Positions 975-27,262 of a stretch of 64,000 bases of DNA are shown piece after piece. Every line of letters starts with the position of its first letter. Within the stretch, counting starts at the first letter, position 1. The notes beneath the pieces were generated by a model. It had not been told where the DNA came from. It worked only from the letters and a program-made list of their open reading frames with translations, and searched no databases. This stretch comes from Bacillus weihaiensis. GTDB taxonomy: Bacteria; Bacillota; Bacilli; Bacillales; Bacillaceae. Both the position numbers and the translations under genes were made by a program. The DNA lies in the NCBI RefSeq assembly GCF_001889165.1, contig NZ_CP016020.1, positions 1,090,501 through 1,154,500 of the forward strand. Reading direction: 5' to 3'.

Positions 975-1679
975 GCGCGACAAGTTTTGTCATAAGCGCT
1001 TATGTGTGAAAAGACAAGGGATTTCTACGGAAATCCTAACTTCATAACCGAGGATAGGAATGATAAAACCACGTATTTTGAAACTATCCCATTAATATTC
1101 CTGCATGCGTCATAATTGACTGATTATGGGGTCTGGAGCTCAGGTGAAGTCGGCAGAACAAAGGCTGAAGCCATTCCGTGTGGAAAGGGTATGCCAATGG
1201 ATATGCCGGATGGCTGAAAAACTAAATATGGTGAGAATTATCTTGTGGAAAAGAACAGACGAACTTCCGAATGTACGGGTCTAGAGTTACGAGCAATAGG
1301 AAACTATTGTCCCATCGTACGATGGGGTGAGTGACGTAGAGTAAAAATTGCTCCTCTGAAACACGTTATATCGAACTATGGCGATATCCAGCTCACAGGC
1401 TTACAGGAAGCACCTAAGTTTAGAATGGATAGCTAGGTTATAAGGTACTTGGAAAGTAAGGGACGTTGATTCAAGGGCTGTCACCCAAAACGGTTGCTAT
1501 AAGTTTATGACGAAATGCATTTGTCCTTATGAGGGTAGGGGTACGACTGGTGAAGCCTTTGTAATGAAGGTGGAGGAACAGCCCCAAGTCTAGCGATAGT
1601 TTTAATTATTTTTCAAATGTGCATTGCACCGGTCGGGTAAGAACGTGGGAACATCACTTCATAAAGGAATGATGCCACA

Positions 1680-3473
1680 GTGCAAGCTCTACGATACTGG
1701 GATTATTATGATATGACTGACACCTTTACAGACTTACATCAACGGGCAAAAAATAAAGAAACGTTCCATTATCTATACGACATTATCACGTCGAGGAATA
1801 ATATTTTATTAGCTTATCGAACAATTAAGTCAAATAAAGGGTCGAAGACTCCCGGTACAGATGGGAAAACCATATTAGATATCGAGAAACGAACCGAGAA
1901 TGAATTAATAGAAGAAGTACAGAGACAGCTCAAGAATTATCGTCCAAAGAAAGTAAGACGGAAACTGATAGAAAAAGATAATGGCAAAATGCGACCATTA
2001 GGCATTCCATGCATCCTCGATAGAATTATTCAACAGTGTTTTAAACAAGTGCTAGAGCCAATCGCGGAAGCTCACTTTTACAACCACAGTTACGGATTTA
2101 GACCTCTACGGTCTACCCACCATGCAATGGCAAGAATACAATTTTTAGTTAATCATTCAAAACTTCATTACGTTGTAGACATTGATATTAAGGGATTCTT
2201 TGACAATATCAATCACACACTACTAATTAAACAACTATGGAGTATAGGCATTCGAGACAGACAAGTCCTCGCATGTATTGCTAAAATGTTAAAAGCCGAG
2301 ATTGATGGCGAGGGTATCCCTACTAAAGGCTCTCCGCAAGGTGGGTTGTTATCGCCGCTGCTATCAAACATTGTTTTAAATGAGCTAGACCAATGGGTGG
2401 CGAATCAATGGGAACTATTCCCCCTTCATAAATCATTCAAGTCTAGGGAAGGTGAACTTCTCGCGAAAAAGCGCACTCATCTAAAAGAAGGTTATCTGGT
2501 ACGTTACGCAGATGACTTCAAAATACTTTGTCGAGATTGGAAAACAGCTGAAAAATGGTATCATGCAGTAAAGCTATTCCTAAAAGAACGTCTAAAACTT
2601 GATATATCACCAGAAAAATCGAAGATTATTAATCTACGTAAGCATGCATCTGCTTTTCTTGGATTTACCATACTCGCAAATCGTAAAGGTAAAAAAAGAG
2701 TGGCTCACACTTTTGTTCGAGCCGAGAAAGTACAGAAGATAAAAGCTGAAACAAAGAAACGGATTGAAATACTTCGCTCTTCACCAACAGCTGAAAATGC
2801 TTTGCGTTTTAATAGTTTTGTCTTAGGGTTACATAATTACTTCTGCAGAGCTACACACGTTAATTTAGCGTTCTCGCGTCTTGCTTATGAAATAGGTGCA
2901 ATGATGTACAATCGTCTTAAGCCTATCGGGAAATATTCACATCCAACGAATGCACCACCAACTTATAAGAAATTTTATAGTTTGGGGTTCAAGACATTTG
3001 AAATTGCTGGTATTCACCTTTTCCCACTCGCCAATGTTCAGACAAAAAACGTTATTAGCTTCACACAAAGTCGAACACCATTCACGATGGAGGGACGAGA
3101 GCAGATTATTAAAAATTTGCAAAAGAATATTAAGCATGAAATAGCTTTATTACTGGAATCGAAAATCCCGACACGGAGTGTCGAATATATGGACAACCGA
3201 ATTAGTCGATACAGTATGAAAAAAGGAATCTGTGAAATCACGGGATTATTCCTCCAAGCACAAGATGTGCACTGTCATCACTATATTCCTATACATCTGG
3301 AAGGAAGTGACAAGTTTCATAACTTACGCATCCTTCACAAAGATGTACATAAACTTATCCATATGAAAGATTCAGCTAAGATAGATTTACTCAAGAAAAT
3401 TCTGGGCATCACAGAACCGATGCTTAAGAAAATCAATAAATATCGGGAAAAATGTGAGTTAGAAATTATATAA
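1680..3473 (+). CDS. ltrA: Group II intron reverse transcriptase/maturase with HNH endonuclease
   Basis: This 597-residue multifunctional intron protein helps fold and splice its own intron RNA and copies it into DNA at new sites. The N-terminal RT domain includes RPLGIP near 106, SPQGGLLSPLLSN near 218-230 and the catalytic YADD at 276-279. A maturase (X) region follows at roughly 350-480. The C-terminus carries an HNH nuclease, with CHHYIPIHLEG and HNLRILHKDVHKLIH. No frameshift or stop interrupts it. The start is GTG with AAGGA eleven bases upstream; an ATG twelve codons in is an alternative. The intact frame suggests a recently active intron. Confidence 0.93.
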   Translation: MQALRYWDYYDMTDTFTDLHQRAKNKETFHYLYDIITSRNNILLAYRTIKSNKGSKTPGTDGKTILDIEKRTENELIEEVQRQLKNYRPKKVRRKLIEKDNGKMRPLGIPCILDRIIQQCFKQVLEPIAEAHFYNHSYGFRPLRSTHHAMARIQFLVNHSKLHYVVDIDIKGFFDNINHTLLIKQLWSIGIRDRQVLACIAKMLKAEIDGEGIPTKGSPQGGLLSPLLSNIVLNELDQWVANQWELFPLHKSFKSREGELLAKKRTHLKEGYLVRYADDFKILCRDWKTAEKWYHAVKLFLKERLKLDISPEKSKIINLRKHASAFLGFTILANRKGKKRVAHTFVRAEKVQKIKAETKKRIEILRSSPTAENALRFNSFVLGLHNYFCRATHVNLAFSRLAYEIGAMMYNRLKPIGKYSHPTNAPPTYKKFYSLGFKTFEIAGIHLFPLANVQTKNVISFTQSRTPFTMEGREQIIKNLQKNIKHEIALLLESKIPTRSVEYMDNRISRYSMKKGICEITGLFLQAQDVHCHHYIPIHLEGSDKFHNLRILHKDVHKLIHMKDSAKIDLLKKILGITEPMLKKINKYREKCELEII

Positions 3474-3527
3474 TCCAGAACCAAGAGTAACTTGAAACTT
3501 ATAATTAATATAACTTCGTTAGATGGA

Positions 3528-3561
3528 ACGCGGAATGCTAGGAAACTGGCACGTTCCGTGT
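3528..3561 (+). other. Group II intron domain V hairpin
   Basis: ACGCGGAA pairs with TTCCGTGT (one G-U), then a T opposite an ACG bulge, then GCTAG-GAAA-CTGGC. The geometry is that of domain V, the catalytic core. The catalytic triad reads CGC rather than the commoner AGC. Domain VI follows at about 3562-3609. Confidence 0.8.
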
Positions 3562-3611
3562 GGAGCAGGGGAAAAGCCGGAGATAATCTCAAACGCTTAC
3601 CTATTGCTAAC

Positions 3612-6405: not shown

Positions 6406-6531
6406 TTCTCTATTGTTAATTAATATTTAAGTTAATGTCCTCATTTGTTTGGCGAGGATGGAGCTCGATTCGACCTATTAAGTATTGAAATAATATAATG
6501 CATGTGCTACATAATTCCGAGGAGGATAAGG

Positions 6532-7575
6532 ATGCTGGTAAAAATCAAATTAGAAGAAAACATGGAAGCAAGGAAAATGAAAAAGAATGAATATGATATC
6601 TCCAAAGTTACTTATAAAAGCTTAGGTTTGATAGAAAATGCTTTAGAAGAGTTTCTACAGGAAAACATTGAGGTGTTAACCCAAGAAGAAGATTACGACT
6701 TAATGGTAATCGGCAAACAAGTTCGAAATAACAACAACAAGCGAACCGATTTAGTCGCACTCGATAGTAATGGGAATGTTGTAGTTATCGAAATCAAGCG
6801 AGACGAGGAAGATATGCGAATGAGAAAGGATAATTTTGAATCGCAAGCGATTCGGTATGCCGCGTCATTCACTAAAATTACGAGTGTAGAAGGATTGGTA
6901 GAAAAAGTGTATGCTGATTACTTAGTGAGATACGAACATATTACAAGAGAATCGGCTATCGAGACAGGAATATCCCGTATCCTCCAATTCTTAACAAAAT
7001 ATGATTCATTTGATAATTTCAATGCAGACCAACGTATTATACTGGTTGCTTCGAGTTTTGATACGAATGTCTTGTCTGCTTCTGCTTGGCTATTATCTAA
7101 ATCAGTAGATATTTCTTGCTTTGAAATTGCACCTCAAGTAATTGAAGGGGAAGGGGGCACGGAATATCTCCTTGAAATAAAGAAACTATTGCCTCTTGGT
7201 TCCGATGAGGATTATTTTACAGAAATTATTAGCAGTGAGCAAAAACGCCCTTCCGCAAGAAAACAATCTAAAGGGACAAGAAAGACATTTCCGAAACTTA
7301 CACATATGCTTGAGGTCGGGATTGTGGCAGACGGGGATGAAATTTTCTTTAAAAATCGAGAAGATGAATCCCAAGCTTTTCTTCATAAAGGTAATAATGT
7401 TGAGTTCCAAGGCAAGATTATTTCTTTAAATGCTTGGGCAAAACAGTTCGCCGCAAGTGGGAAAGTAAACGCATATGATTATGCAATAGTGAAGGAGCAA
7501 AAACAAACATTATCAGAACTTCGCTTGAAACATTATGATTTGTTTGATGGCATGGGTTTTGACCCTATTCAATAG
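6532..7575 (+). CDS. PD-(D/E)XK nuclease-like protein (DUF91/NucS-like) with RAMA/DUF4357-like C-terminus
   Basis: The N-terminal half carries RTDLVALDSNGNVVVIEIKRD, the D-x(n)-ExK signature of PD-(D/E)XK nucleases, in a context like DUF91/NucS-type proteins. The last 85 residues (LEVGIVADGDEIFF... ISLNAWAKQF) resemble the small domains attached to restriction enzymes (RAMA or DUF4357). The start is the ATG at 6532, six bases after GAGGAGG; the upstream ATG at 6502 has no such site. It stands alone, without a methylase partner. A DNA-repair or solitary defence nuclease role is inferred from the family. Confidence 0.68.
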   Translation: MLVKIKLEENMEARKMKKNEYDISKVTYKSLGLIENALEEFLQENIEVLTQEEDYDLMVIGKQVRNNNNKRTDLVALDSNGNVVVIEIKRDEEDMRMRKDNFESQAIRYAASFTKITSVEGLVEKVYADYLVRYEHITRESAIETGISRILQFLTKYDSFDNFNADQRIILVASSFDTNVLSASAWLLSKSVDISCFEIAPQVIEGEGGTEYLLEIKKLLPLGSDEDYFTEIISSEQKRPSARKQSKGTRKTFPKLTHMLEVGIVADGDEIFFKNREDESQAFLHKGNNVEFQGKIISLNAWAKQFAASGKVNAYDYAIVKEQKQTLSELRLKHYDLFDGMGFDPIQ

Positions 7576-8139
7576 TAAAGTTGGGTCTGATAAATTTTAA
7601 TGTTGAATTACGATAAAATTATAGGGAACTTGAAATAAGGGGAGATTTTACATCAAAGGTTAAAATCGCTCGTTTAATTCTATTGATGGTGGCATAAAAG
7701 GAATGTCTTTCCATATAGCCACCATTTTGCATATAGTGTCATTGAGGTGATGCAGCGTGAGCAAGTCGTCTTCTCCGTTAAGTTAGGTAAAGAAACTTAT
7801 GGAACACAACACGATGAAAAATGAAGAAGCATTTCTGAAAGCACTTGAGTTTTACTTTGGGATAAATAGAAACCAAGGTGGAAGATGAAAATAAAAACGA
7901 GCCTACTTTCCAATTAAACTTGGAAAGTAGGCTAATTTAATTTATATAAACAATATTATTAACACTAATGTTATTTTACAGGTAATTAGTTGTAAGACCA
8001 GTATCAATACTCGACCACTCATAGTGTATTTGCTCTAGAACTTAATAAGAAGAATTTCTTATTTTTGTGACATTTATATGTTAGATTGTGGTAAAATTTT
8101 CTTATTGATTTTACTTAAATTAGGGGGATAAAGTGACGA
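7576..8139. other. Intergenic region with two hairpins, no gene recognised
   Basis: A hairpin at 7686-7725 (ATGGTGGC / GCCACCAT with an inner GGAA / TTCC) probably ends the nuclease transcript. Short open stretches at 7750-7888 look like gene debris, but I cannot assign them. A strong terminator is at 7901-7932. Confidence 0.5.
7901..7932. terminator. Strong hairpin terminator
   Basis: A perfect 13-bp stem, GCCTACTTTCCAA / TTGGAAAGTAGGC, with A-rich sequence before and T-rich sequence after, so it could act in both directions. Confidence 0.75.
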
Positions 8140-12125: not shown

Positions 12126-12320
12126 TCAGACCGTTAAATCATTTTCTGATTTTATATCAATCGCTTCTTTTAAAAGCCTTTGAAGAACAGCAGCAAAGAC
12201 TGCGATAATCATTGAAGCAAAAGTGAGGATGAATCCTAAGCCAATAACACCTGTTATGTCTTCCCCTTCACCTGCCGTGAGTATAATCACAGATATTAAC
12301 CCTATTAGAACTAAACTAAG
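12126..12320 (-). pseudogene. DUF2975 membrane protein, 3' remnant
   Basis: On the minus strand this stretch reads LVLIGLISVIILTAGEGED, then VFAAVLQRLLKEAIDIKSEN and DLTV before a stop, which is the typical C-terminus of DUF2975 proteins paired with YozG regulators. The reading ends near 12320, where plus-strand hsdM homology begins. About two thirds of the protein is missing. The loss looks like one edge of a deletion. Confidence 0.72.
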
Positions 12321-13620
12321 AGAAAATGTTATTCCAGAAGGGTATAGGTGGGATGATTTAACGGAAAAAGAAGGTACAGAACTTAAGAAGTTCTACCAGA
12401 AATTATTGCTTGAACTGGGAAATAATTCAAATCCTATATTAGGACAAATATATGGTGATGCAGCTACTAGTATTTCAGAACCGAAGAACCTTGAGAAAAT
12501 TATTAAATCCATTGATGCACTTGATTGGTATCATGCAAAATATGAGGGTCTCGGAAACCTATATGAAGGATTATTAGAAAAGAATGCTAGTGAGAAGAAA
12601 TCTGGAGCGGGACAATACTTTACACCTCGCGTTCTAATAGATGTAATGGTTCAATTGATAGACCCAAAAATAGGTGAGAAATGTAATGACCCTGCGGCTG
12701 GAACATTTGGATTTATGATTGCTGCAGACCAGTATTTGAAAAATAAAACAGACGACTATTATGAAATTTCACCTCAAGAAGCCGAATTTCAAAAGAAAGA
12801 GGCTTTTACGGGAATGGAACTTGTTAAAGATACCCATCGTTTAGCATTAATGAACGCTTTGCTTCATGATATCGAAGGCAAAATCGAACAAGGTGACTCT
12901 TTATCAAGTAATGGCAAGTGGATAAAAAATATTGATGTTATTTTAACAAATCCTCCATTCGGAACGAAAAAAGGTGGGGAAAGAGCTACTCGTGATGACC
13001 TAACCTTTACGACTTCCAACAAACAATTGAATTTCCTGCAATTGATTTATAACGCGCTAAAAGATAACGGACAAGCTCGTGCAGCAGTCGTTTTACCTGA
13101 TAATGTTTTATTTGAAAGCGGGATAGGTGCACAAATTCGCCGAGATTTAATGAATAAATGTAACTTGCATACTATTCTGCGCCTTCCAACTGGTATATTT
13201 TATGCACAAGGTGTAAAAACAAATGTGCTGTTCTTTACAAGAGGAACGACAGACCAAAATAATACGAAAGATGTTTGGGTCTATGACCTGAGAACAAACA
13301 TGTCATCTTTTGGTAAGAGAAATCAATTAAACCTCGGACACTTCGAAGGGTTTATGAAGGCATATGTAGCTGAAGACCGTACAAAAGTAGTAGATGAGCG
13401 ATGGAACCTGTTTACGCGTGAACAGATTGCACAAAAAGATGACAGCCTAGATATAGGTCTAATTGCAGATGAATCCCTTACATCATATTCAAATCTACCA
13501 GACCCAATCGAATCAGCAGAAGAAGCTATCGCTAAGCTTCAACAGGCAATGGATTTATTAAATGAAGTAGTTGAAGAGTTACGTGCTGTTGAAGATGACG
13601 AGGTGGACGTAAATGAGTAA
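12223..13620 (+). CDS. hsdM: Type I restriction-modification DNA methylase subunit HsdM, 5'-truncated
   Basis: HsdM transfers a methyl group from S-adenosylmethionine to adenine as part of the M2S complex. The catalytic domain is intact: the SAM-binding region NDPAAGTFGFMIAADQYL and the NPPF motif (ILTNPPFGTKKGG). The N-terminus is not: HsdM homology begins only at ENVIPEGYRWDDL (about 12322). The first roughly 33 residues are the antisense of a DUF2975 gene, and about 40 residues of the normal HsdM_N helical domain are missing. GTG 12223 or ATG 12229 would be chance starts without a ribosome site. Overlap with hsdS by 8 bases is normal. Activity is doubtful. Confidence 0.85.
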   Translation: MRMNPKPITPVMSSPSPAVSIITDINPIRTKLRENVIPEGYRWDDLTEKEGTELKKFYQKLLLELGNNSNPILGQIYGDAATSISEPKNLEKIIKSIDALDWYHAKYEGLGNLYEGLLEKNASEKKSGAGQYFTPRVLIDVMVQLIDPKIGEKCNDPAAGTFGFMIAADQYLKNKTDDYYEISPQEAEFQKKEAFTGMELVKDTHRLALMNALLHDIEGKIEQGDSLSSNGKWIKNIDVILTNPPFGTKKGGERATRDDLTFTTSNKQLNFLQLIYNALKDNGQARAAVVLPDNVLFESGIGAQIRRDLMNKCNLHTILRLPTGIFYAQGVKTNVLFFTRGTTDQNNTKDVWVYDLRTNMSSFGKRNQLNLGHFEGFMKAYVAEDRTKVVDERWNLFTREQIAQKDDSLDIGLIADESLTSYSNLPDPIESAEEAIAKLQQAMDLLNEVVEELRAVEDDEVDVNE

Positions 13621-15091
13621 GAAAAAAAAGACCATCGAAGATTTATTTAATGAAGCTATTGTTCTAGTTGAAGAAGAACCATACTTAGTCCCAAAAAATT
13701 GGGTGTGGACAAAACTTGGTAAGGTAGGTAACTATTATAATGGTAGAGCATTTAAACCAACAGAATGGTCAGATAAAGGAAGACCTATTATTAGAATTCA
13801 AGATTTAACGGGTACAAATAAAGGGGAACCAAACTACTTTGTGGGGCAGGTAGCTGAAAAGCATGAAATAACAAAAGGTGACTTATTAATTTCATGGTCT
13901 GCAACACTTGGTGCTTATATTTGGAACGGAGCAGATGCAGTATTAAATCAGCATATTTTTAAAGTAGAGAGCTTTATTGACAAGAAATATCATTATTTTG
14001 CTATGCAACAGTTTATTTCTTCTCTTTATAGTAAAACACATGGTTCTGGCATGGTACACGTTACAAAGAAAGTATTTGATGAAACCCCTTTTCCATTGCC
14101 GCCATTAAATGAACAAAAACGCATAGCTGAGAAAATAGAGAGTTTATTAAATAAAACCGAAGAAGTAAAGAAATTAATTAAGGAAGCGAAGGAAACATTA
14201 ATACTTCAGATTAATGCAGTTTTAAATAAAGCTTATAAAGGGGATTTAACACAACAATGGCGCAAGAGTAATATTAGTAAATTTACTCGTGAAGAATTTG
14301 TAGCTCAATTAAGTGCTGAAAGAATAAATTTATCTAGGAGTAAGAGAGATAAGGAATATTATATTGAACGCTTTAATTCTTTATTATTAGAACAACCAAA
14401 AAATATCCCTAATGATTGGGTTATGGTTGAATTTGAGTTGATTTGTGACAACATAACCAAGGGTACAACTCCAAAAACCTCAGAGATAACTTTTGAAGGA
14501 GATGTTCCCTTTTTAAAAGTTTATAACATTGTTGATAATCAAATCGATTTTGAATTTAAGCCTGGCTTTATACCTAAAACGGTACATGAAAACAAACTTA
14601 AGCGTTCCATAGTTTATCCAGGAGATGTACTAATGAATATTGTTGGACCCCCACTTGGAAAGGTAGCAATTGTACCTCCTACTTATCCTGAGTGGAATAT
14701 AAATCAAGCAATAGCAATATTCCGCCCCATTAAAGATGTCCTGAACGAATATATTTACTATTCATTATTATACGAAAAAACATTAGAAGAGGTTTTTCAA
14801 GGTACAAGGGGAGTTGTGGGGCAGAGTAATATTTCGCTTGAACAATGTAGAAAATTAAAGTTAGCACTTCCGCCACTAGAGGAACAAATAAAAATTGTAG
14901 AAACAATAAAGTCTACCTTTGAGAGGCTCAAAGTAGTTGAAAACAATATTAATCACTTAAGCAGTGTGCTTGAAAAAACTGAAAAGTCTGTTATGTCAAA
15001 AGCCTTCCGAGGAGAACTTGGAACAAATGACCTTAACGATGAAAATGCGATTGAATTATTAAAGAAAATGATTCAAGAACAAGTAAAATAA
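13613..15091 (+). CDS. hsdS: Type I restriction-modification specificity subunit HsdS
   Basis: HsdS recognises the two halves of the bipartite DNA target. The 492 residues contain two target-recognition domains (roughly 20-175 and 255-425), each followed by a conserved helical spacer with PLPPLNEQKRIAEKIE or LPPLEEQIKIVETIK and the AVLNKAYKGDL / SVMSKAFRGELG repeat. Length and architecture are complete. It overlaps the end of hsdM. No hsdR is present on either side in this window. Confidence 0.93.
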   Translation: MSKKKKTIEDLFNEAIVLVEEEPYLVPKNWVWTKLGKVGNYYNGRAFKPTEWSDKGRPIIRIQDLTGTNKGEPNYFVGQVAEKHEITKGDLLISWSATLGAYIWNGADAVLNQHIFKVESFIDKKYHYFAMQQFISSLYSKTHGSGMVHVTKKVFDETPFPLPPLNEQKRIAEKIESLLNKTEEVKKLIKEAKETLILQINAVLNKAYKGDLTQQWRKSNISKFTREEFVAQLSAERINLSRSKRDKEYYIERFNSLLLEQPKNIPNDWVMVEFELICDNITKGTTPKTSEITFEGDVPFLKVYNIVDNQIDFEFKPGFIPKTVHENKLKRSIVYPGDVLMNIVGPPLGKVAIVPPTYPEWNINQAIAIFRPIKDVLNEYIYYSLLYEKTLEEVFQGTRGVVGQSNISLEQCRKLKLALPPLEEQIKIVETIKSTFERLKVVENNINHLSSVLEKTEKSVMSKAFRGELGTNDLNDENAIELLKKMIQEQVK

Positions 15092-15298: not shown

Positions 15299-15463
15299 TT
15301 GAAAAAGCAAGAAGAGATTCAAATTGATTCAGTTCAATATGTTTATGACAAGGAATTTGAAAAGCAATGGAAAGCGTATTATTTCAGTATGGTAAAACGG
15401 GAACTACACCAGATACGGTGGGACGGTGAACATCATGAAAAAAACGGTGATATACGTTCGTAG
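15299..15463 (+). CDS. Small ORF preceding the recombinase pair
   Basis: This encodes about 54 charged residues (KKQEEIQIDSVQYVYDKEFE...). A GGAAGG site nine bases upstream points to the TTG start; two ATG codons at 15290 and 15293 lie too close to it. It ends inside the start of the first recombinase gene, so the two are probably translationally coupled. Function is unknown; a directionality or accessory factor for the recombinases is possible. Confidence 0.5.
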   Translation: MKKQEEIQIDSVQYVYDKEFEKQWKAYYFSMVKRELHQIRWDGEHHEKNGDIRS

Positions 15464-16910
15464 GTCATTAAATGAAATGAAACAAAAAACGTCTATTCCT
15501 TATCAGATTAATACTTGTAAGGACTATGCTGAAAAGCAAGACTGGATGGTGCATGAAGTATTTAATGAGGGAGAGAAATCAGCCAGAAGCTCTGAGCTTG
15601 AGGAACGGAAAGAGATTTCGCGGTTAATGAAAGAAGTGAAAAGTGGTTTCATTGAAAGAATTATTGTTTTTAAGAGAGACCGTATTTCTAGACGAGCAGA
15701 CCAGTATATGGAATTTGTGGAATTATTAAGAGCACATAAAGTTTCCATGCATTTTGCAGGTGATAATGAGCCTCAGATGTTTGATGGGGTTGTCGGTGAT
15801 TTTATTGAACTGTTATTTGGTGCGATATCTGAACATGAAGGAAATAATATTACTCAACGACTCATTCAATCTCGTATTGCTAAAGTAAGAGAAGGAGAGT
15901 GGGGAGGAGGTAGACCACCAAAGTTTTATCATATTAAAGAAATTAATACAGACGGTGAGATTGAGAAAAAGTTAATGATAACCAATGAGAACAAAGAGAA
16001 AATTAAAGAAATTTACGAGTTCGTTGCAAATAGTGATTTTAAAACTGTAAAAGAAGCAAATGTTTCCTTAAAAGGAAAAAGACCATCCTTGAAAAATATT
16101 GATTTAGTGGAATTTATTCCAAAAGAACTCCACAAAGGTTGGATGACAGCAACTTATGAAGGCATTTCAATAAGAAGTAAAGCAGTCAATCCCAGGATAA
16201 AAGCAGTTGAAGAAAAATTATGGAATGCAGCAAATGAAAAATTAATAAAGATGGAAGATTCATTTTTCGAAAAGGAAGTAATTACTGTGAATCCCAAATT
16301 AGAGAAGGTACTCTTTTGCAGCTGTTGTAAAAATCAACTTAGTTCGAAACAAGGTTATTATTTTTGCCCAAATCACAAATCGGGTTTAAGAATCAGTGTA
16401 GAACTGCTAGATAACCAGATTATAAAAGCCGTTCACTCTCGAATTAGTTCTCATGTTGCAAAAAATAAAGCCGAAATCGTTGCTTATGTTACAAAAGAAC
16501 TAATAACACCATTAGAAATCGCCTGCCTAGAAAATGAAAAAGCTATAGAAAATGCACAAGGTATGTTACAAAAAATGACCAGTGTATGTATTGCCAACCC
16601 TTCGAAATACAAAACAGGTGAAGAAAAGAAAAAATTCCTTAAGCCGTATGTTGACGGATATAAGGAGTGCTTTCAGAATTTAAAATTAACAAAAATAAAG
16701 TTAGAAGAAAACCGTGAACGAATTTTTCTTTCATTAAATAAAATGCTCCCAGTTCCAACCATACAATCCCTTTCTAACTATAAACAAAAAGAGTTATTAC
16801 GCTTTTACATTGAAAGAATTGAGGTGGATACAGATTTACATGTGAAAATAATCTACAGAACAGACATGAGAATGAATAGGGAGGAAAGCAATTGTCGAAT
16901 AAGGAAATGA
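15435..16910 (+). CDS. Large serine recombinase 1
   Basis: This 491-residue protein has a resolvase-type catalytic domain: YVRRS with the nucleophile at Ser11, and the arginine cluster FKRDRISRR near residue 80. It continues with a recombinase domain (GEWGGGRPPKFY), a zinc ribbon (CSCCKNQLSSKQGYYFCPNH) and a coiled-coil C-terminus. Such enzymes cut and rejoin DNA at short att sites. ATG 15435 fits the weak ACGGTGA site better than GTG 15426. It overlaps the next recombinase by 19 bases, so the two are made together. Confidence 0.9.
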   Translation: MKKTVIYVRRSLNEMKQKTSIPYQINTCKDYAEKQDWMVHEVFNEGEKSARSSELEERKEISRLMKEVKSGFIERIIVFKRDRISRRADQYMEFVELLRAHKVSMHFAGDNEPQMFDGVVGDFIELLFGAISEHEGNNITQRLIQSRIAKVREGEWGGGRPPKFYHIKEINTDGEIEKKLMITNENKEKIKEIYEFVANSDFKTVKEANVSLKGKRPSLKNIDLVEFIPKELHKGWMTATYEGISIRSKAVNPRIKAVEEKLWNAANEKLIKMEDSFFEKEVITVNPKLEKVLFCSCCKNQLSSKQGYYFCPNHKSGLRISVELLDNQIIKAVHSRISSHVAKNKAEIVAYVTKELITPLEIACLENEKAIENAQGMLQKMTSVCIANPSKYKTGEEKKKFLKPYVDGYKECFQNLKLTKIKLEENRERIFLSLNKMLPVPTIQSLSNYKQKELLRFYIERIEVDTDLHVKIIYRTDMRMNREESNCRIRK

Positions 16911-18490
16911 GCATCGAAGAAAGATTGCTTAATGCCAAGAAAATAGCAACTTATCTGCGGGTATCTCAAGAGAGTCAAGAATATTCACGCCAAAATGATA
17001 TCATTTTACAGTATTTGAAAAATGTTGGAGAAGATGTTGAAACACTAGACTTTAAAGATAAAATCTCAGCAACAAAAAAGCCATTCACCAAAAGACCTGA
17101 TTTAGCTGAACTCCTAGAAGAGGCTCAGGAAAAAAATATTGATGCCGTTGTTGTATCTGATTTGGACCGGCTTTCTCGTCAACCAAAAGAGCATGATGTT
17201 CTTCGTAAGTTATTTCAAAAATTGGATATCCCCGTTATTATTGCTTCTAAAAATCAACTATACACATCAGATGATATCATTCGAAATATTATTGAAGCGG
17301 GATTAAGTAAGCTCGAAACGGATAATATGTCGGTACGGATTCGAAGTGCATTAAATGAGAAAATGAAAAGCGGAAGATGGAGAGGAGGGAAAGTGCCATA
17401 TGGTTTTTCATTAGAAGAAACTGCTGGAGAAAAAAGCCTTGAATTTATCGATGGAGAGATTCAAATCGTAAAACAAATCTTTGAATGGTACAGCACGAGT
17501 GGAACTTTTAACAGTATCGCCAAAAGATTAAATGAATTGTACGGCGGTTATACCTCTATAAGCCAGGAGCAGAAAAAATGGACACCGAATAAGGTAAAAT
17601 ACATTGTTACAAATCCTATTTATATGGGCGCATATGTATATCATCGCTTTCCAAATGAGGGAGGTTATGTATTTAAGGACAGAAGTGAATGGACAGAAGC
17701 TACAGGAACGAATGTCATTAATAATTCACCGATTTCAAAAGAGCTGTGGGAACGGTGTTGGCAAAAATACACTAAATTGAAATCGAGTGCACCGAAGTAT
17801 TTAAATACCTCATTTTATTTTAAAGGAATATTAAAGTGTATGTGTCCAGCATGCAATGGAGCCTCTTTTTCTACAAAAGACCAGCGTAGTAAAGGAAGAG
17901 GCTCAAGGTGGTATATTAGTCCGTGTAAGAAAAAAGTTCGTGCAGATAAGTTAGATGAAGAGTTTGATAAATATTGGTCCTGGTTACAAGAAAAAAGTGA
18001 TAAATTATTCCAAGAAGAAGTAAGAATTCTTTTACTGGAGGAATTACACTCCCTACAAGCAACCAAAGATAATAACGATATTATGTATTCTGAAAAGATG
18101 GCGTTATTAAAAGAGATAAAGTCAGAAGTTAAAGAAATAACTGAAGAATGCAAGATGGGAATAGAAGAATTCGTGAAACATGAAAATGAAGTTTTGATTG
18201 CACTTATCGTGACTCAACAGCAGCTAGAGAATCAATTAGCTCAATTAGAGCAAGAGAATAAAAAGTTTGATTTTTCAATCAAGAAGTTAGAAGCAGTATT
18301 AGCAGAACCAGCTAATAATACATTTGATAAAAGCTTACTACCTGAGAGTTTTGATAAATTAAGTCATGCTGATAAACGTTCCATCGTTTTGATGACTGTA
18401 AAAGAGTGTAAATATACCATTGATAATGAGAAGAACGGAAAAATTGAATTCGCTTTTCATTTTCCATTTAAGAACTATTTTGAAAAGTAA
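16892..18490 (+). CDS. Large serine recombinase 2
   Basis: The 532 residues have catalytic Ser25 in YLRVS, the DLDRLSR arginine motif, a recombinase domain (GRWRGGKVPYGFS), a degenerate zinc region (CMCPACNGASF, then a later cysteine) and a long coiled coil (about 380-480). It starts at TTG 16892 with a good GGGAGG site. It is not a duplicate of recombinase 1; the two share only the family motifs. The overlapping arrangement recalls paired recombinases such as CcrA/CcrB of SCC elements, where both proteins are needed. Confidence 0.9.
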   Translation: MSNKEMSIEERLLNAKKIATYLRVSQESQEYSRQNDIILQYLKNVGEDVETLDFKDKISATKKPFTKRPDLAELLEEAQEKNIDAVVVSDLDRLSRQPKEHDVLRKLFQKLDIPVIIASKNQLYTSDDIIRNIIEAGLSKLETDNMSVRIRSALNEKMKSGRWRGGKVPYGFSLEETAGEKSLEFIDGEIQIVKQIFEWYSTSGTFNSIAKRLNELYGGYTSISQEQKKWTPNKVKYIVTNPIYMGAYVYHRFPNEGGYVFKDRSEWTEATGTNVINNSPISKELWERCWQKYTKLKSSAPKYLNTSFYFKGILKCMCPACNGASFSTKDQRSKGRGSRWYISPCKKKVRADKLDEEFDKYWSWLQEKSDKLFQEEVRILLLEELHSLQATKDNNDIMYSEKMALLKEIKSEVKEITEECKMGIEEFVKHENEVLIALIVTQQQLENQLAQLEQENKKFDFSIKKLEAVLAEPANNTFDKSLLPESFDKLSHADKRSIVLMTVKECKYTIDNEKNGKIEFAFHFPFKNYFEK

Positions 18491-20614: not shown

Positions 20615-20838
20615 ACAGTTCCCCTCCATTTTTATCCTACCAATATAATTCGATATGTCTTTTGGAAAGACCTTTATGATTACGAATGGACTTTAAATGT
20701 AATTGGAATCATTTTTTGTAAACTTAGAAATGATGTAGGTTTTTCTGTCAATAGATACCTTTAATTCGGAAAATAATGACAATAACTGATAGGTATTTTA
20801 TAATAGCTTTAAGTGTTTTTTTCTGGAGGTATTATCAA

Positions 20839-22071
20839 ATGTTTGAACTAATACATAAAAATAATAACAAAAATATCGTTCTATTTATTCATGGATTTAC
20901 TAGTAACAACGATACGTGGGTTAATTCAAACGGAGTTCCTTTTCCAAATATGTTGCTAGAACATGAGGTTATAAAAAAAAATTTTGATTTTGCTTATCTG
21001 TCATATGATACCGAACTATTAAACTTTTACAGAGTGAAAGCAGGATTAAGTTTTATTGGTCGAACTGTTTTTGGTGGCAATGCAGTTGCAAAAAAAAGTT
21101 TAGATATATTGCAATTGAGTGATTATATATCAACCACTATATCGCTTAACTGTAGTGATTATGAAAGTATAGTGATTGTTGCACATAGCATGGGAGGACT
21201 AGTTTCCAAAGGGTATATATTAAAAGATTTGGAAAGAAATAAATATACTAAAGTTAAATTGTTACTTTCTTTAGCAGTACCACATAATGGTTCTAATTGG
21301 GCTGCTGTTGGAAAAAATTTATTCAAGAAAAATAAGCAAGTAATAGATTTGGAACCGTTAAGTAAAACATTGACTGAGCTTACTAACAAATGGCTTTGGC
21401 AAGAAGAAGGTCTACCTGAAACCGTTTATCTTATTGCTCAGCATGATGAAGTCGTAGAAGAAACAAGCTCAACTGGGCATGAAAAGACAAGGCAGTCACA
21501 ATTTTACTGTCGTGATAATCATTTTTCAATAACTAAACCAGAAAATGAAAACACAAATAGCTTTTTGACGGTGAAAAAATATTTATTAGAAGTTTCAGAG
21601 AAAAGTGAAACTAGTGTTGAAGTAAAAAAATTTAATGACATTGGTCAATATGATAAAGAAATATTTGTTATAAAATTAATATTAGCAGATGTTCATAAGA
21701 CAGTAATTGGAAGTTCTAAAGAAACTTTTTATAACGCTGAATATATTACAAAATATTTATTATCTCAAAAAATTAATATGTCGCACCTTGAGGCGCTATA
21801 TACGAAAATTAAACATTTATATACTATTCATTTCGGCGAACTATTGTCAGGAAAAATTAAAGATAGTACAGAATTAGTAACGGTTTTACATGGGCAAATT
21901 CTAAAACAAGATAGAAATTTTTTAAAAAGTTCCCTTACAATGATTGATGCTCTTCAAAAAACAGGCATGTTACACCAGTTAGCCAATAATTTAGATAGTG
22001 AAATTATGTGGGCAAAAGAAACCCAAATTGAGAAAGTTAATGAACTACGTGGGGAACGAGCACATGATTAA
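20839..22071 (+). CDS. ABC-3C system alpha/beta hydrolase effector
   Basis: This 410-residue protein combines an alpha/beta hydrolase with an ABC-3C-type C-terminal domain. Hydrolase features are the IHGF oxyanion motif near residue 19, nucleophile elbow AHSMGG with Ser117, an AQHDEVV segment and a CRDNHFSI histidine region, as in lipase-like enzymes. The C-terminal 130 residues contain KTGMLHQLANNLDSEIMW, the hallmark of ABC-three-component effectors. The start is ATG 20839, eight bases after CTGGAGG. It overlaps the middle-component gene by 8 bases. The likely job, by family, is a membrane-lipid or other hydrolytic attack released on infection. Confidence 0.78.
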   Translation: MFELIHKNNNKNIVLFIHGFTSNNDTWVNSNGVPFPNMLLEHEVIKKNFDFAYLSYDTELLNFYRVKAGLSFIGRTVFGGNAVAKKSLDILQLSDYISTTISLNCSDYESIVIVAHSMGGLVSKGYILKDLERNKYTKVKLLLSLAVPHNGSNWAAVGKNLFKKNKQVIDLEPLSKTLTELTNKWLWQEEGLPETVYLIAQHDEVVEETSSTGHEKTRQSQFYCRDNHFSITKPENENTNSFLTVKKYLLEVSEKSETSVEVKKFNDIGQYDKEIFVIKLILADVHKTVIGSSKETFYNAEYITKYLLSQKINMSHLEALYTKIKHLYTIHFGELLSGKIKDSTELVTVLHGQILKQDRNFLKSSLTMIDALQKTGMLHQLANNLDSEIMWAKETQIEKVNELRGERAHD

Positions 22072-22570
22072 AGTTCCATTTATTGTTCCTGAATTTGACA
22101 TTAATATTAGACTTGGAAGGGCTTTAATTATAATAAATTATTTATCTACTCTGCGAAATGGCAGAGAGGTTCTCAATCTAGAAAAAATCGTAATTTTTGA
22201 TTTTTTATTACACCATCCAAAGATTTTATACCACATATTAGAAAGTGAAGGTGTAAATAATCCATTTGATTTAGAGGATTATGATACTGAGTCAATTGAG
22301 ACAATTTCTCCAACCAAGTTACTGCTCTTTGAAAGAGATACAATAAAGGAAATTACTAAATTGTTGTATACTAAACAATTAATAAGCATTAATGTAAAAG
22401 ATGATATTTATTTCAAACCTACAGACAATGGAAAAAAATTTGTTGAACAAATGGCGTCTAGTTATTTAATGCGTTTGAAAATAATGGCAGATTCCATGAC
22501 TAAACTAAAGTCTTTAACAATATCACAATTAAAAATGAAGGTAGTCCCTTTTATTCAAGGAGAAAATTAA
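22064..22570 (+). CDS. ABC-3C system middle component
   Basis: This 168-residue protein starts at ATG 22064, inside the end of the hydrolase gene. It is helix-rich, with a winged-helix-like C-terminal half (LLYTKQLISINVKDDIYFKP, then TDNGKKFVEQM). Gene size, position between effector and ATPase, and overall pattern (RLGRALIIINYLSTLRNGRE, then a hydrophobic helix) fit the small middle components of ABC-three-component systems, which bridge effector and ATPase. It ends one base before the ATPase start, indicating one operon. Confidence 0.72.
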   Translation: MIKVPFIVPEFDINIRLGRALIIINYLSTLRNGREVLNLEKIVIFDFLLHHPKILYHILESEGVNNPFDLEDYDTESIETISPTKLLLFERDTIKEITKLLYTKQLISINVKDDIYFKPTDNGKKFVEQMASSYLMRLKIMADSMTKLKSLTISQLKMKVVPFIQGEN

Positions 22571-24532
22571 ATGAATAAATCAGCAGCAAATCTAAAAATA
22601 AACAAATTAGTTCTTGTGGGTAGGGATAAAAATTATGTAGTTGAATTTCACAAAGGCTTAAATATTATATATGGTGATTCAGACACTGGTAAGTCAAGTA
22701 TATTAAATTTAGTAAATTATTTATTAGGGTCAAAAAATATTTATATGTATGAAGAACTTGAAATACATGGTAAAGAAGCTTTATTAGAAGTTTTACTTAA
22801 CGGAGAGTTATTTACTATTAAACGGGATATTTTTAACCCTAATGATTTTATAGAAGTTTATCCTTCAAGCATTGAAGATATGGAAGGCACATTTCCTTTA
22901 GAATTTGGACCCGACTATAAAAAGACTGGTCCAAATGGTTTTTTCTCAGATTTTTTACTTGAATCTTTAAATATTCCCCTAATTGAAGTAAAACAGGCAC
23001 CGACAAAAGCAGATTCCAAAACCATACGATTAAGTTTCAGGGATATCTTTAAATTTTGTTATCTTAATCAAGATGATGTGGGTAACAGAGATATGTTAGA
23101 TAGAAAGAACTTTAGTGTTTTCACTAAAAACAAAGAAACCTTTAAGTTTATTCACAATCTTCTCGATACCCAGATATTACAAATGGAAAAAGAGTTATCA
23201 GAAAAGAGAAGGAAAAAGAATGAACTTTTAGCAGAATATAAGATAATTTCAACCTTCTTAAGAGATGCCAAGTTTGAGACAGAGGATAGCATAAATCATA
23301 AAATTGAACAAATTAGCCTAGAGCTTAAATTCGTTGAGAGAGAAATCAGTAAAATTAACACTACTCTGTTATCTGATACAGAAAAATTTGAGGATTTACG
23401 AGAAGATATTTTGTTGTTGGAACAACAAATTAGCGAAACTCATGTTGGAAAATCGATAAAAGAAACGCAACTTGAACAGAATGTTAGGTTAAGAAAAGAA
23501 TATAAAAAGGATATTGATAAGCTAAAAGCTGCAATTGAAATCAAAGAAGCCTTGCCAGAACATGATGGGGAACTAGATTTAAGTTGTCCAGTATGTGATA
23601 ACGCTATAGTTCTTGATTCTCACGATAATACAATAATACAATATGAAGAACAAATGCTAAAAAATGAAATAAAAAAAATAAAATCAAGAATAGATGATAT
23701 TGATGGTTTGATAATAGAGCAACGAAATGCAGTTTATATCTTTGAGGATAATTTAAGAAAATGGAAAAATGAATTAGCTGAAAAGAAGAATACCCTTGAT
23801 ATGAACACCAAGGAAATTATATCTCCATATTTGGCTCAAAGAGATGAAATGATGTCTAAGAGAGCTACTATTTATGAGACTAAACAAAGAATCTTATATT
23901 TTCAAAAAGTAAGAACAAAACTAAACAAGTTAAACCACAATGCAGAAACTATTCAAGAGCAAATTACTGAATTAGAAGGAAAGCTAGAAGGCTTAAAAAA
24001 TGGTACCCCTGAAATTGAGCAGGTAATTGGAGATATTGCTGATATATTAAGTGATTATTTACAAATAATTCCAATACGGAACGCTCATGGGATATCAATT
24101 AATAAAAACTCTCTTCTTCCAGTAGTGCGGAATAAAGATTATCATAATTTAACTTCGGGCGGGTTGAGAACTATTGTTTCTATAGGATACTTTATTAGTC
24201 TACTAAAGTATGGGGCTAATAATAATACTTATTTGCCAAGTATATTAATGATTGATACTTTAGCTAAATATTTGGGAACAAATGATACGAGTTCTAATGC
24301 AGACATTATTAGAGAAATTTTTGATGATGAGGGACTTAAAGACCCCAAAAAGTATGTCAACCTATATAAATACCTTGTAAGTCTTCATGAAAATTTGAGT
24401 GATACCCATCAAATTATTGTTGTTGATAATCAACTTCCAAGAGGATTGGAAGTCACACTGAAACAGTTTGTAGTTAAGCATTTTAGTGTAGACGGTATAG
24501 GGGATTCAAAAGGCTTGATAGATAACGCTTAA
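22571..24532 (+). CDS. ABC-3C system SMC/Rad50-like ATPase
   Basis: The 653 residues have an N-terminal Walker A, GDSDTGKS (35-42), and a long coiled coil (about 205-330 and 355-490) broken by a CPVC zinc-hook-like motif (339-342). The C-terminal ABC half has the LTSGG signature and Walker B-like SILMIDTLAK. This is the layout of Rad50/SMC-type ATPases, which sense DNA or nucleoprotein structures. In this operon it would be the sensor that controls the hydrolase. No key motif is missing. Confidence 0.82.
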   Translation: MNKSAANLKINKLVLVGRDKNYVVEFHKGLNIIYGDSDTGKSSILNLVNYLLGSKNIYMYEELEIHGKEALLEVLLNGELFTIKRDIFNPNDFIEVYPSSIEDMEGTFPLEFGPDYKKTGPNGFFSDFLLESLNIPLIEVKQAPTKADSKTIRLSFRDIFKFCYLNQDDVGNRDMLDRKNFSVFTKNKETFKFIHNLLDTQILQMEKELSEKRRKKNELLAEYKIISTFLRDAKFETEDSINHKIEQISLELKFVEREISKINTTLLSDTEKFEDLREDILLLEQQISETHVGKSIKETQLEQNVRLRKEYKKDIDKLKAAIEIKEALPEHDGELDLSCPVCDNAIVLDSHDNTIIQYEEQMLKNEIKKIKSRIDDIDGLIIEQRNAVYIFEDNLRKWKNELAEKKNTLDMNTKEIISPYLAQRDEMMSKRATIYETKQRILYFQKVRTKLNKLNHNAETIQEQITELEGKLEGLKNGTPEIEQVIGDIADILSDYLQIIPIRNAHGISINKNSLLPVVRNKDYHNLTSGGLRTIVSIGYFISLLKYGANNNTYLPSILMIDTLAKYLGTNDTSSNADIIREIFDDEGLKDPKKYVNLYKYLVSLHENLSDTHQIIVVDNQLPRGLEVTLKQFVVKHFSVDGIGDSKGLIDNA

Positions 24533-24735: not shown

Positions 24736-24844
24736 TTACGAAATCCAATGAATTTATAATGTCCACCTTTATTCGGTAACTATGCTTATTATTAGGGGTT
24801 ATACATAAAAAGTTCATAAATAAGAATAAAATGTTTTTATATAT

Positions 24845-24874
24845 GAATAACAGTTAGATTTTTCCACATACTAT
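24845..24874 (+). promoter_or_regulatory. Candidate sigma-E-like promoter of recombinase 3
   Basis: GAATAACA (with the ATA core of sigma-E -35 elements) and CATACTAT (7 of 8 to CATACAMT) are separated by exactly 14 bases. The spacing matches mother-cell promoters. The -35 element is weak and the region is AT-rich, so chance is possible. Confidence 0.38.
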
Positions 24875-24967
24875 ATTTAAATAAGGCAAGAAAGGATGAT
24901 GAATAAAAAGTAAAAGTTGCATATCGCTAGCCTGCTAGAAATAAAGTTCAATTAAGAAGGTGATAGC

Positions 24968-26434
24968 ATGCAGCACTATGCCGTTTATGTACGTGTATCA
25001 ACAGACCGTGATGAACAAGTTTCATCTGTAGAAAACCAAATGGATATCTGTCGAAATTGGTTAGAGAGAAATGGGTATCAATGGGATGAGGACTGTGTTT
25101 TTAAAGATGAGGGCATAAGTGGAACATTGTTTATTGACAGACCAGCTATTCAATTAATACTTGAAAAAGCAAAGCAAAAGAAACTTGATATGGTCATTTT
25201 TAAATCGATTTCCCGTTTAGCCCGTGATTTAAAGGATTCACTTGAAATAAGAGAAGTTTTTTTGGCACATAATGTGCGAATAATTTCAGTTGAGGAAGGT
25301 TATGACTCGAATAAAGCTGGAAAAAATGATATGGCTTTCGAATTATGGTCATTATTCTCAGCTCAATATAGTCGAACATTATCTTCAAGTATCAGTGCCG
25401 CCTTAGCTGCGAAAGTCAGACGAGGAGAACATATTGGGAAAGTTCCGTATGGATATGACCGAATGGAACAAAAACTTGTCATAAATGAAAATGAAGCAGA
25501 GGTCGTTCGCCAAATTTATAAGTGGTACAACGATGGATGGGGATTTAAGAAAATTTCAAACGAATTAAACGAATTGGGGATTAAGCCTAAAAATAATAAA
25601 GTATGGCAGCTAACATCTGTACAGAGATTGATTCGTAATACTATTTATAAAGGAACCTTTATCTTAAATCAGTATACGAATGTGAAAGTTGGAGGAAAGA
25701 AAAAACAAATTCGGAATCCGCCAGAAAAATGGATAGTTTTTGAAAATCATCATCCTGCTATTGTTGATGAAGAAACATGGAATAAAGCGAATAAAGAGCA
25801 CTTTAAATCTAATAAAGTCCGTATAACACCATGGAACGAATTTCGATACCTAGCAAAGTGTTCAGAATGTGGTTCAAATATGGTTATTGTTCAATCGTAT
25901 AAAAAGAAGAAAAGCGGAGAACGAACCGAGTGGAAGTATTTGAAGTGTTCGCAGTATCGTCGAGCAGGTAAACATGGGTGTGTTAACCATACACCTATTC
26001 AATATGAGGATTTTAGACAGTTTATTCTTAACCTATTAATGAAGAAAGGTGAATCTGTCTTGTTTAACCTTTCAACTAATGTTGTAAATGAGCAGGCAAA
26101 GCAAGAACGGAAATTGCAGCAGGCACTAAAACAAAACGAACAACGGAAGAAGAATCTACTTGATTTGTATTTGGATGGTTTAATCGATAAGGATGAGTTT
26201 GAAAAGAAGCGTCAGGAAGTCGAGGAGGTAATAACAAAAACAAATAACCAGTTGTTTATTATTAAACAATCGGAAACTGTTCAAACGAACATCCAGACAA
26301 TAAAAGATGCGTTTCAGGAGTTACAAAATCAAAACCAGGATTTGTTTGATGTATTCCAAACTTTAATAGAAGAAATTATCATTCATCCTGATGGGACGAT
26401 TGATATTACGTACACATTCGAAGAGCCAAAGTGA
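24968..26434 (+). CDS. Large serine recombinase 3, next to the gerE junction
   Basis: This 488-residue site-specific recombinase has catalytic Ser11 (YVRVS), the SISRLAR motif, a recombinase domain (GEHIGKVPYGYDRM), a zinc ribbon (CSECGSNMV ... CSQY ... GCVNH) and a coiled coil at about 375-430. The start has an AAGGTGAT site. It is the nearest recombinase to the truncated gerE gene, 700 bases away with one gene between. I infer that it integrated the element and may excise it, as SpoIVCA does for skin. Motifs are all intact, so it is likely active. Confidence 0.92.
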   Translation: MQHYAVYVRVSTDRDEQVSSVENQMDICRNWLERNGYQWDEDCVFKDEGISGTLFIDRPAIQLILEKAKQKKLDMVIFKSISRLARDLKDSLEIREVFLAHNVRIISVEEGYDSNKAGKNDMAFELWSLFSAQYSRTLSSSISAALAAKVRRGEHIGKVPYGYDRMEQKLVINENEAEVVRQIYKWYNDGWGFKKISNELNELGIKPKNNKVWQLTSVQRLIRNTIYKGTFILNQYTNVKVGGKKKQIRNPPEKWIVFENHHPAIVDEETWNKANKEHFKSNKVRITPWNEFRYLAKCSECGSNMVIVQSYKKKKSGERTEWKYLKCSQYRRAGKHGCVNHTPIQYEDFRQFILNLLMKKGESVLFNLSTNVVNEQAKQERKLQQALKQNEQRKKNLLDLYLDGLIDKDEFEKKRQEVEEVITKTNNQLFIIKQSETVQTNIQTIKDAFQELQNQNQDLFDVFQTLIEEIIIHPDGTIDITYTFEEPK

Positions 26435-26449
26435 TGTTGGAGGGTTTAT

Positions 26450-27091
26450 ATGGATTCGAACTTAGAAATGAGCAAGTTTATTGATGTAAATAATGACGAG
26501 AATGAAAATGCCCCATCTGTTCTTTATAAAAAGGCAGTAAGTTATATGGATAGAGGGTACTATTGGGAGGCAATAGACCATTACGAAAAAGCAGCGAATT
26601 TAGGTTATGTTAAAGCTCAGTCCGATTTAGCCAACCTATATCTTTATGGTGTTGAGGAAATAGGTATTAAATCGTATCATCCTAATGCATTAAAGTGGTT
26701 TCGAAAGCTTGCTGAACAGGGTGACGAAGAAGCACAATTTCAGTGTGATTATCTATATTACTACGACTTACGGAATTCTCAAGAATCTAAGGAAACAATT
26801 GAAGAGTTTTTAGAGACTTCGGAGGTTGAGGATACTAATGCTTTTAAGTTAGCGGGACAAATGTATTATTTCGGTGAAGGTATTGAAAGAGATGTACAAC
26901 AAGGAATTGAATACTTCAGGAGAGCGGCTGACCAAGGAGATGTTGATGCACAATTAGCGGTATGCGCATGTTGTTATGAAATTGGAAAACTCGGTGAAAC
27001 CATTAGCTACTTAAATATGGTCGAAACAAATCATTATGAATTAACGGATAGTCATAAGGATTGGATAGCACAAATTAAGTCTAATCTTTAA
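26450..27091 (+). CDS. Sel1-repeat protein
   Basis: The 213 residues contain several Sel1-like (TPR-related) repeats: YYWEAIDHYEKAANLGYVKA, PNALKWFRKLAEQGDEEAQ and QQGIEYFRRAADQGDVDAQ. Such repeats form a protein-binding solenoid. The start has a GGAGGG site, and the gene follows the recombinase by 15 bases, so the two are co-transcribed. A role in helping or restraining recombination is possible but not shown. It is the last complete gene of the accessory block before the gerE remnant. Confidence 0.82.
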   Translation: MDSNLEMSKFIDVNNDENENAPSVLYKKAVSYMDRGYYWEAIDHYEKAANLGYVKAQSDLANLYLYGVEEIGIKSYHPNALKWFRKLAEQGDEEAQFQCDYLYYYDLRNSQESKETIEEFLETSEVEDTNAFKLAGQMYYFGEGIERDVQQGIEYFRRAADQGDVDAQLAVCACCYEIGKLGETISYLNMVETNHYELTDSHKDWIAQIKSNL

Positions 27092-27107
27092 TTAGACGGA
27101 GTTTTTT
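27079..27107 (+). terminator. Terminator at the right end of the accessory block
   Basis: GTCTAAT / ATTAGAC stem overlapping the stop codon of the Sel1 gene, followed by GGAGTTTTTTG. Confidence 0.6.
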
Positions 27108-27133
27108 GTTTAAATGGTTTGCAAACACAACGC

Positions 27134-27220
27134 ATCACAAATGCGATGCAAAAGCTTGGTGTTAAGGGACGTTCTCAAGCGGTTGTTGAGCTCCTTCGAA
27201 TGGGTGAACTAGAGCTCTAA
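27134..27220 (+). pseudogene. gerE: gerE, 3' fragment; gene interrupted by the accessory element
   Basis: Twenty-eight codons read ITNAMQKLGVKGRSQA then VVELLRMGELEL and stop. From memory, B. subtilis GerE ends in the same residues from NAMQ onward. GerE is the 74-residue LuxR-type DNA-binding protein that acts last in the mother cell, switching on coat genes after sigma-K. Similarity begins at the Ile codon (27134); upstream of it the frame is unrelated. The next gene, ysmB, is the usual neighbour of gerE. The N-terminal 46 or so codons are not in the window. The gene is either split by an excisable element or destroyed. Confidence 0.85.
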
Positions 27221-27224
27221 CCAA

Positions 27225-27262
27225 AACCGGCTAACCTTTTTAGGAAGGGAGCCGGTTATTAT
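27225..27262 (+). terminator. gerE terminator
   Basis: AACCGGCT / AGCCGGTT stem followed by ATTATTTTCCC. It is retained just after the gerE remnant. Confidence 0.75.

Follow-up and report, generated by a model that had tools for sequence, protein, structure and literature searches.

gerE is required for spore formation and encodes a regulator of the mother cell. Several other sporulation genes harbor excisable serine-recombinase elements, namely skin in sigK, SPbeta in spsM, vfbin in spoVFB and yin in yabG, and the available portions of the two reports consulted mention gerE only in passing (PMC6957869, PMC10747680). Like the island described here, these elements encode serine recombinases and are placed within sporulation genes; their targets differ. 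The closest described counterpart is gin of Bacillus cereus ATCC10987 (Abe et al. 2017, PMC5595907). As far as the accessible text of that paper extends, the gin elements known in 2017 came from a handful of strains of B. cereus and B. toyonensis, and one prophage was mentioned besides; gin of B. cereus was excised in sporulation only, not with mitomycin C, and cleavage was predicted at the AA of gerE nt 145-146. The same text describes GirX as a directionality factor of 42 aa, places GirC at 52% to the integrase of a B. glycinifermentans gerE prophage, and records recJ in the gin of four B. cereus strains, not as a defining feature. It also reports that B. subtilis spores without GerE are lysozyme-sensitive and germinate poorly. 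Within the open-licence literature, in those parts open to us, this was the only paper devoted to a gerE-intervening element, and absence from that literature is weak evidence.

Here we follow up a preliminary description of one 64,000-nucleotide stretch of DNA (the window, C1:1090501-1154500), in which a broken gerE was noticed and likened to gin. We conclude, with a probability of about 0.88, that the island within this gene is a gin-type gerE-intervening element that is excised in the mother cell during sporulation to restore gerE.

Results

gerE is split at codon 49

The genome consists of two contigs (4.36 Mb, 99.99% complete). Codons 49-74 and the stop codon of gerE lie in frame on the forward strand of the window, followed by the transcription terminator of the gene:

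27116..27165 (+): attR, comprising the element arm (27116-27139), the crossover AA (27140-27141) and the gerE arm (27142-27165)
27140..27220 (+): 3' part of gerE (codons 49-74 with the stop codon), whose 5' counterpart lies left of the window, at C1:1089660-1089805
27225..27257 (+): gerE transcription terminator, stem of -18.4 kcal/mol, z -3.3

Codons 1-48, together with the shared AA, are found on the same contig at C1:1089660-1089805, some 0.7-0.8 kb to the left of the window. Identity to B. subtilis GerE is 94% for the 5' part, over residues 1-53 (E 5e-27), and 87% for the 3' part, over residues 44-74 (E 1e-10). The PDB entry for GerE is 1FSE. Codon 49 presumably falls within the recognition helix. 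sdhA-sdhB flank the split gene on the left, and a MarR-type gene followed by glutamate racemase flanks it on the right; we take the MarR-type gene to occupy the place of ysmB. The neighboring positions of the two fragments, their identities and their common frame led us to reject a chance resemblance. A second, intact copy was likewise rejected: a search of the genome found none, the remaining nine of 11 matches being at most 48% identical. The sigK gene of this host is uninterrupted.

Most of what the preliminary description had read from the window alone was borne out. The gerE remnant sits where expected before ysmB-racE, its terminator is a real stem, the N-terminal codons lie beyond the window as proposed, and a 5' fragment is indeed present beside sdhB at the left end of accessory DNA that carries three serine recombinases. 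No complete gerE turned up elsewhere in the genome. Its placement of the GerE C-terminus at 27134-27220 was right as to the GerE 3' part and wrong as to the start: the Ile-Thr codons at 27134-27139 belong to the element arm of attR, so the host part begins at 27140.

Both junctions share an AA dinucleotide

The AA of attL is located at C1:1089804-1089805, giving an island of 27,836 bp from AA to AA. The split falls within gerE nt 138-146 and both ends have a short sequence in common; the attL and attR of this element agree at nt 138-141, 143 and 145-154. A sequence shared by the two junctions had been anticipated in the preliminary description, and takes the form of the AA core with neighboring bases. 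For comparison across genomes, we aligned left and right junctions over gerE nt 121-180, setting up 41 pairs from 42 genomes; one draft genome (G034) was left out because its gerE 3' piece of 19 bases was too short for a match. Only nt 140, 145 and 146 were identical in 41 of 41 attL/attR pairs, which makes the AA at nt 145-146 the only invariant dinucleotide.

The reconstructed attP is an inverted repeat centered on this AA. In this island 19 of 24 positions agree between its two element arms; the mean is 17.1 of 24 over 40 complete pairs, compared with 8.6 for the host arms. The GCATC/GATGC pair that had been suggested as part of the att core forms the inner part of this repeat. With so nearly symmetric an attP, polarity is probably set by the AA alone, which would let elements insert into gerE either way round. 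In Gottfriedia endophytica the whole element (26,566 bp) is reversed, with girC touching attL and girX at attR; girC also abuts the gerE 5' part in Perspicuibacillus, and lies on the gerE 5' side, 3.6 kb away, in Gracilibacillus halophilus.

The island carries three serine recombinases and defense cargo

At 33.0%, the G+C content of the island is below that of the window's right flank (37.3%). Its left part runs from attL through a girX-like gene of 39 aa, a weakly DinB-like gene and a group II intron with its maturase to a PDC-S11 gene. The middle holds a decayed second girX, a gene with an NPCBM domain, a gene that looks lipoprotein-like by eye, and a type I methyltransferase with its specificity subunit. 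Two overlapping serine recombinases, an LmuA-C-B operon, a third serine recombinase and a Sel1 protein make up the right part, which ends at attR. The features are:

C1:1089928-1090047 (outside the window): girX-like gene, 39 aa, the first gene inside attL
1035..3610 (+): group II intron inserted into the element; its reverse transcriptase/maturase is at 1680-3473
6502..7575 (+): PDC-S11-type candidate defense protein (cargo)
7729..7866 (+): decayed second girX copy; CATA box and ribosome site kept, frame broken (by eye)
12223..15091 (+): type I DNA methyltransferase (12223-13620) and specificity subunit (13613-15091) (cargo)
15426..16910 (+): girA-type serine recombinase, 494 aa, overlapping the next gene by 19 bases
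16892..18490 (+): girB-type serine recombinase, 532 aa, adjoining and overlapping the girA-type gene
20776..24532 (+): Lamassu-type defense operon (cargo), with LmuA at 20776-22071, LmuC at 21998-22570 and LmuB at 22571-24532
24968..26434 (+): girC-type large serine integrase, 488 aa, with Resolvase, Recombinase and zinc ribbon domains
26450..27091 (+): Sel1-repeat protein, between girC and attR

The integrase at 24968-26434 is the sole full-length match of the GirC family in the genome. The overlapping genes at 15426-16910 and 16892-18490 form a two-gene operon of the girA-girB type and are candidate homologues of B. cereus girA and girB. A search for close plasmid relatives of this pair found none, the best whole-length matches reaching 21-23% identity, so the link to pMC319 described for B. 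toyonensis was not reproduced. After the decayed girX copy comes an NPCBM-type gene, the same one that Cytobacillus firmus has close to girX. The decayed copy suggests that the island grew at its left end or duplicated that end. No restriction subunit for the type I system was found among the ORFs scanned, and neither capsid, portal nor terminase genes were matched in 20 ORFs searched with Pfam and 13 window ORFs searched with PHROGs; the PHROGs matches labeled tail or lysis were weak (E 0.0096 and 0.7) and fell on a recombinase.

Comparison with described gerE elements

The likening to gin in the preliminary description proved apt: the island has a recombinase of the girC type, a gene of the girX type and a pair of the girA/girB type. 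To the extent that PMC5595907 was available, B. cereus gin and the present island share the target gene, codon and AA crossover; similar sizes (28.6 kb and 27.8 kb, respectively), lower G+C and a lack of phage structural genes; two adjacent serine recombinases and one separate; a gene of about 40 aa towards the left end, girX in B. cereus and a predicted directionality gene here; and genes of the restriction/modification type. They differ in that the host here is a Metabacillus, and that, of the nine bases common to both junctions in B. cereus, attL and attR here disagree at nt 142 and nt 144, with agreement continuing further right, to nt 154. The cargo also differs, consisting here of Lamassu, the group II intron and PDC-S11, with no DHH/RecJ domain in the 20 ORFs scanned with Pfam; and this island has a decayed second girX copy in addition to the girX-like gene placed first inside attL. 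The assignment to the gin kind is indirect as regards proteins, the probable likeness of its GirC and GirX to those of B. cereus running through relatives and domains.

The B. glycinifermentans gerE prophage has an integrase of the same family, that of strain GO-13 being 54% identical to the one here. GirC-family phages more generally share the attB and the attP symmetry, and several have a girX-like gene; unlike the window element, for which none was found among the ORFs scanned, two phage records contain structural genes.

GirC relatives split gerE across spore formers

We searched 80 genomes of the family for GirC relatives at E 1e-120 or better. Thirteen had one, and gerE was att-split at the AA in 13 of these 13; one of them, G034, had an intact gerE copy as well. 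The same split accompanied a distant integrase (E ~1e-75 to the GirC profile) in two further genomes (G020 and G069), bringing att-split gerE to 15 of 80, one with an intact copy too. A further candidate (G033) was removed from this count, as its gerE is fused to racE-like sequence and has no att arm. There the gerE 5' part continues in frame into the racE-like sequence as a 332-aa open frame (L213, G033:C1:3218914-3219084); we read this fusion as the product of a deletion or a faulty assembly, not of an att event.

Across a sample of 397 genomes of the order, GirC was found in 13. At least 16 (about 4%) contained only a gerE 5' fragment, 11 with GirC and five with the distant clade, and this count of split genes is a lower bound. 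One candidate, G238, was rejected as a divergent intact gerE, and seven further genomes of its genus were counted as intact on similar scores. G135 has a partial GirC beside a gerE 3' piece on a small contig, plus an intact gerE, in an assembly with 6% contamination.

Named genomes yielded 47 GirC loci, and 41 had a gerE fragment within the fetched stretch. The others comprise two loci that reach contig ends (L123 and L131), one that stops 19 bases into gerE (L127), one whose genome has its gerE halves at contig ends (L114), a partial match (L134), and L133 from Neobacillus jeddahensis, where girC is internally deleted and an intact gerE lies on another contig. Among 26 genomes reached through these loci, 25 had only a gerE 5' fragment; the exception, G486, is that of L133, with its intact gerE and broken girC, and is the same genome as G242 in the order sample (same gerE coordinates). 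Going by the record titles, the genera extend from Bacillus, Metabacillus, Cytobacillus and Virgibacillus to Brevibacillus, Aneurinibacillus, Laceyella and Thermoactinomyces. These numbers suggest that splitting of gerE is common. A further 47 GirC relatives were on viral contigs; Caldibacillus phage CBP1 holds one at 55%, and related integrases also occur in ordinary temperate phages.

Several loci merit separate mention. A second, distant integrase clade uses the same AA in gerE with other arm sequences (L232-L237, from G169, G020, G069, G227, G218 and G394). The girC of the gerE element in B. glycinifermentans GO-13 (L015, G027) has one in-frame TGA and may for that reason be inactive. The N. 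jeddahensis locus (L133, 11190-11250) has a girX copy and, in joined form, an inverted repeat like that of attP, within a degenerate element outside gerE, and what appears by eye to be a RecJ-like gene adjoins the girC with its large internal deletion. A record titled Roseburia sp. 1XD42-34 (L100) resembles a Virgibacillus locus (L101), and its organism name may be wrong.

Excised forms, probable transfer and constraint on the split halves

A B. altitudinis record deposited as a circular plasmid of 40,956 bp contains phage genes, a girX-like gene and a GirC-family integrase, and its last and first bases together form the predicted attP with the joint at AA. That the record starts exactly at this joint may reflect where the assembler cut the circle. 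Near attP it also has an AimR-type arbitrium receptor, according to the record annotation (L272, 198-1286). In draft genome G034, one contig runs from attL to attR and another holds an intact gerE, so integrated and excised states were probably both present in the sequenced DNA. Elements lying on single contigs ranged from 4,079 to 50,185 bp. The stretch of the present island from girC to attR (24739-27259) is 89% identical to C. firmus, compared with mostly 64-75% for the chromosome to the right of gerE, where two short stretches (76 and 99 bases) reach 79 and 88%; this difference points to transfer between genera.

No stop codon was seen in 44 distinct 5' halves and 51 distinct 3' halves of split gerE. 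Measured against the nearest intact sequences, which are often distant relatives, pN/pS was 0.081 for 5' halves and 0.115 for 3' halves, with 0.061 and 0.034, respectively, for intact genes. The split halves are constrained, their pN/pS being low but above that of intact genes; part of this signal, and perhaps most of it, predates the insertions.

A rival reading is that the island is a dead insertion that has broken gerE permanently, leaving a host that makes spores without GerE or none. Decay does occur, as in the internally deleted girC of N. jeddahensis (L133/G242) and the B. glycinifermentans girC interrupted by TGA. Here, however, neither girC nor the girX-like gene is damaged, the two att arms and the two halves of gerE are likewise intact, the codons on either side of the island are still GerE-like and in frame, and sigK is uninterrupted, making a dead insertion highly improbable.

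A girX-like microprotein and an upstream box accompany GirC

Relatives of the 39-aa girX-like product occur in many elements and share a core like LKxGKExYGTxxxEEAFxKAxxPYF. With a profile of 28 sequences, some from the genomes searched, and a threshold of E below 1e-13, matches were obtained in 15 of the 397 order genomes: 12 of 13 with GirC (all but G135) compared with three of 384 others (G137, G219 and G242; Fisher p 2e-19). Weak matches in G298 (3.6e-5) and G390 (7.4e-4) would raise the latter to five of 384. When genomes contributing rows to the profile (G000, G088, G133, G311, G459 and G242) were left out, the counts were seven of eight and two of 383. In the 4.1-kb element of G133, the girX-like gene is directly upstream of girC. 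The protein had no Pfam match, one NCBIfam match far below its cut-off (E 0.14), and weak matches to PHROGs 14553 and 14915, both of unknown function. By size and setting, it is about what would be expected of a GirX-like directionality factor.

Upstream of the girX-like gene, 20 of 31 loci, some of them closely related, have a box consisting of GTMC and CATA separated by 13-17 bases, with a spacing of exactly 14 in 19 of the 20. Mononucleotide shuffles of the same regions gave a mean of 0.2 and a maximum of 2. The CATA resembles what we take to be the -10 element of mother-cell sigma factors; the usual sigma-E and sigma-K patterns were each present at one of 31 loci. No such box precedes girC in the window. 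A stretch GAATA ... CATACTAT upstream of girC is common to the window, C. firmus and Neobacillus niacini and absent in Gottfriedia, and by eye it resembles a possible sigma-E site.

Least probable of all is an ordinary integrated island that uses gerE as its attB and excises for transfer only, outside the sporulation program, a reading that would suit the related integrases of ordinary temperate phages, which must excise in vegetative growth, and the rarity of canonical mother-cell promoter patterns upstream of girX, but sits poorly with a non-random GTMC-N14-CATA box found in phages and islands alike and, from the accessible text of PMC5595907, with the sporulation-limited, mitomycin C-insensitive excision of B. 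cereus gin and the defective B. subtilis spores formed without GerE.

Discussion

We favor a gin-type element that leaves gerE during sporulation. Under this model, the integrase encoded at 24968-26434 would have inserted the island by recombination between gerE, at the AA in codon 49, and an attP built as an inverted repeat. Vegetative cells would be left with a truncated GerE, a 58-aa ORF lacking the C-terminal third. In the sporulating mother cell, integrase and girX-like protein would both be made, the latter presumably setting the direction of recombination; the 27.8-kb circle would then leave at the same AA, and the rejoined gerE would probably yield a working regulator. The predicted timing and restriction to the mother cell would allow the spore line to retain the island.

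Several aspects of this work appear to be new: the spread of these elements, the invariance of the AA over many of them, a second clade of integrases, the family of girX genes together with the box upstream, and elements lying in reverse. We met none of them in the open-licence literature, in the portions available. We consider it reasonably likely that gerE codon 49 is a standing developmental docking site throughout the spore-forming Bacilli, on whose AA at least two deeply separated integrase clades have converged in the form of 4-kb cassettes, defense islands and phages. The main clade would be accompanied by one conserved microprotein of the girX type and by a promoter-like box responsible for switching on excision when spores form, and either orientation would be possible.

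These results supply a predicted family of directionality factors and a promoter-like box, both of which can be tested in B. subtilis. A further question they raise is why a regulator of the mother cell should be invaded by mobile DNA time and again. As the mother cell is bound to die, leaving its chromosome may be cheap for the element.
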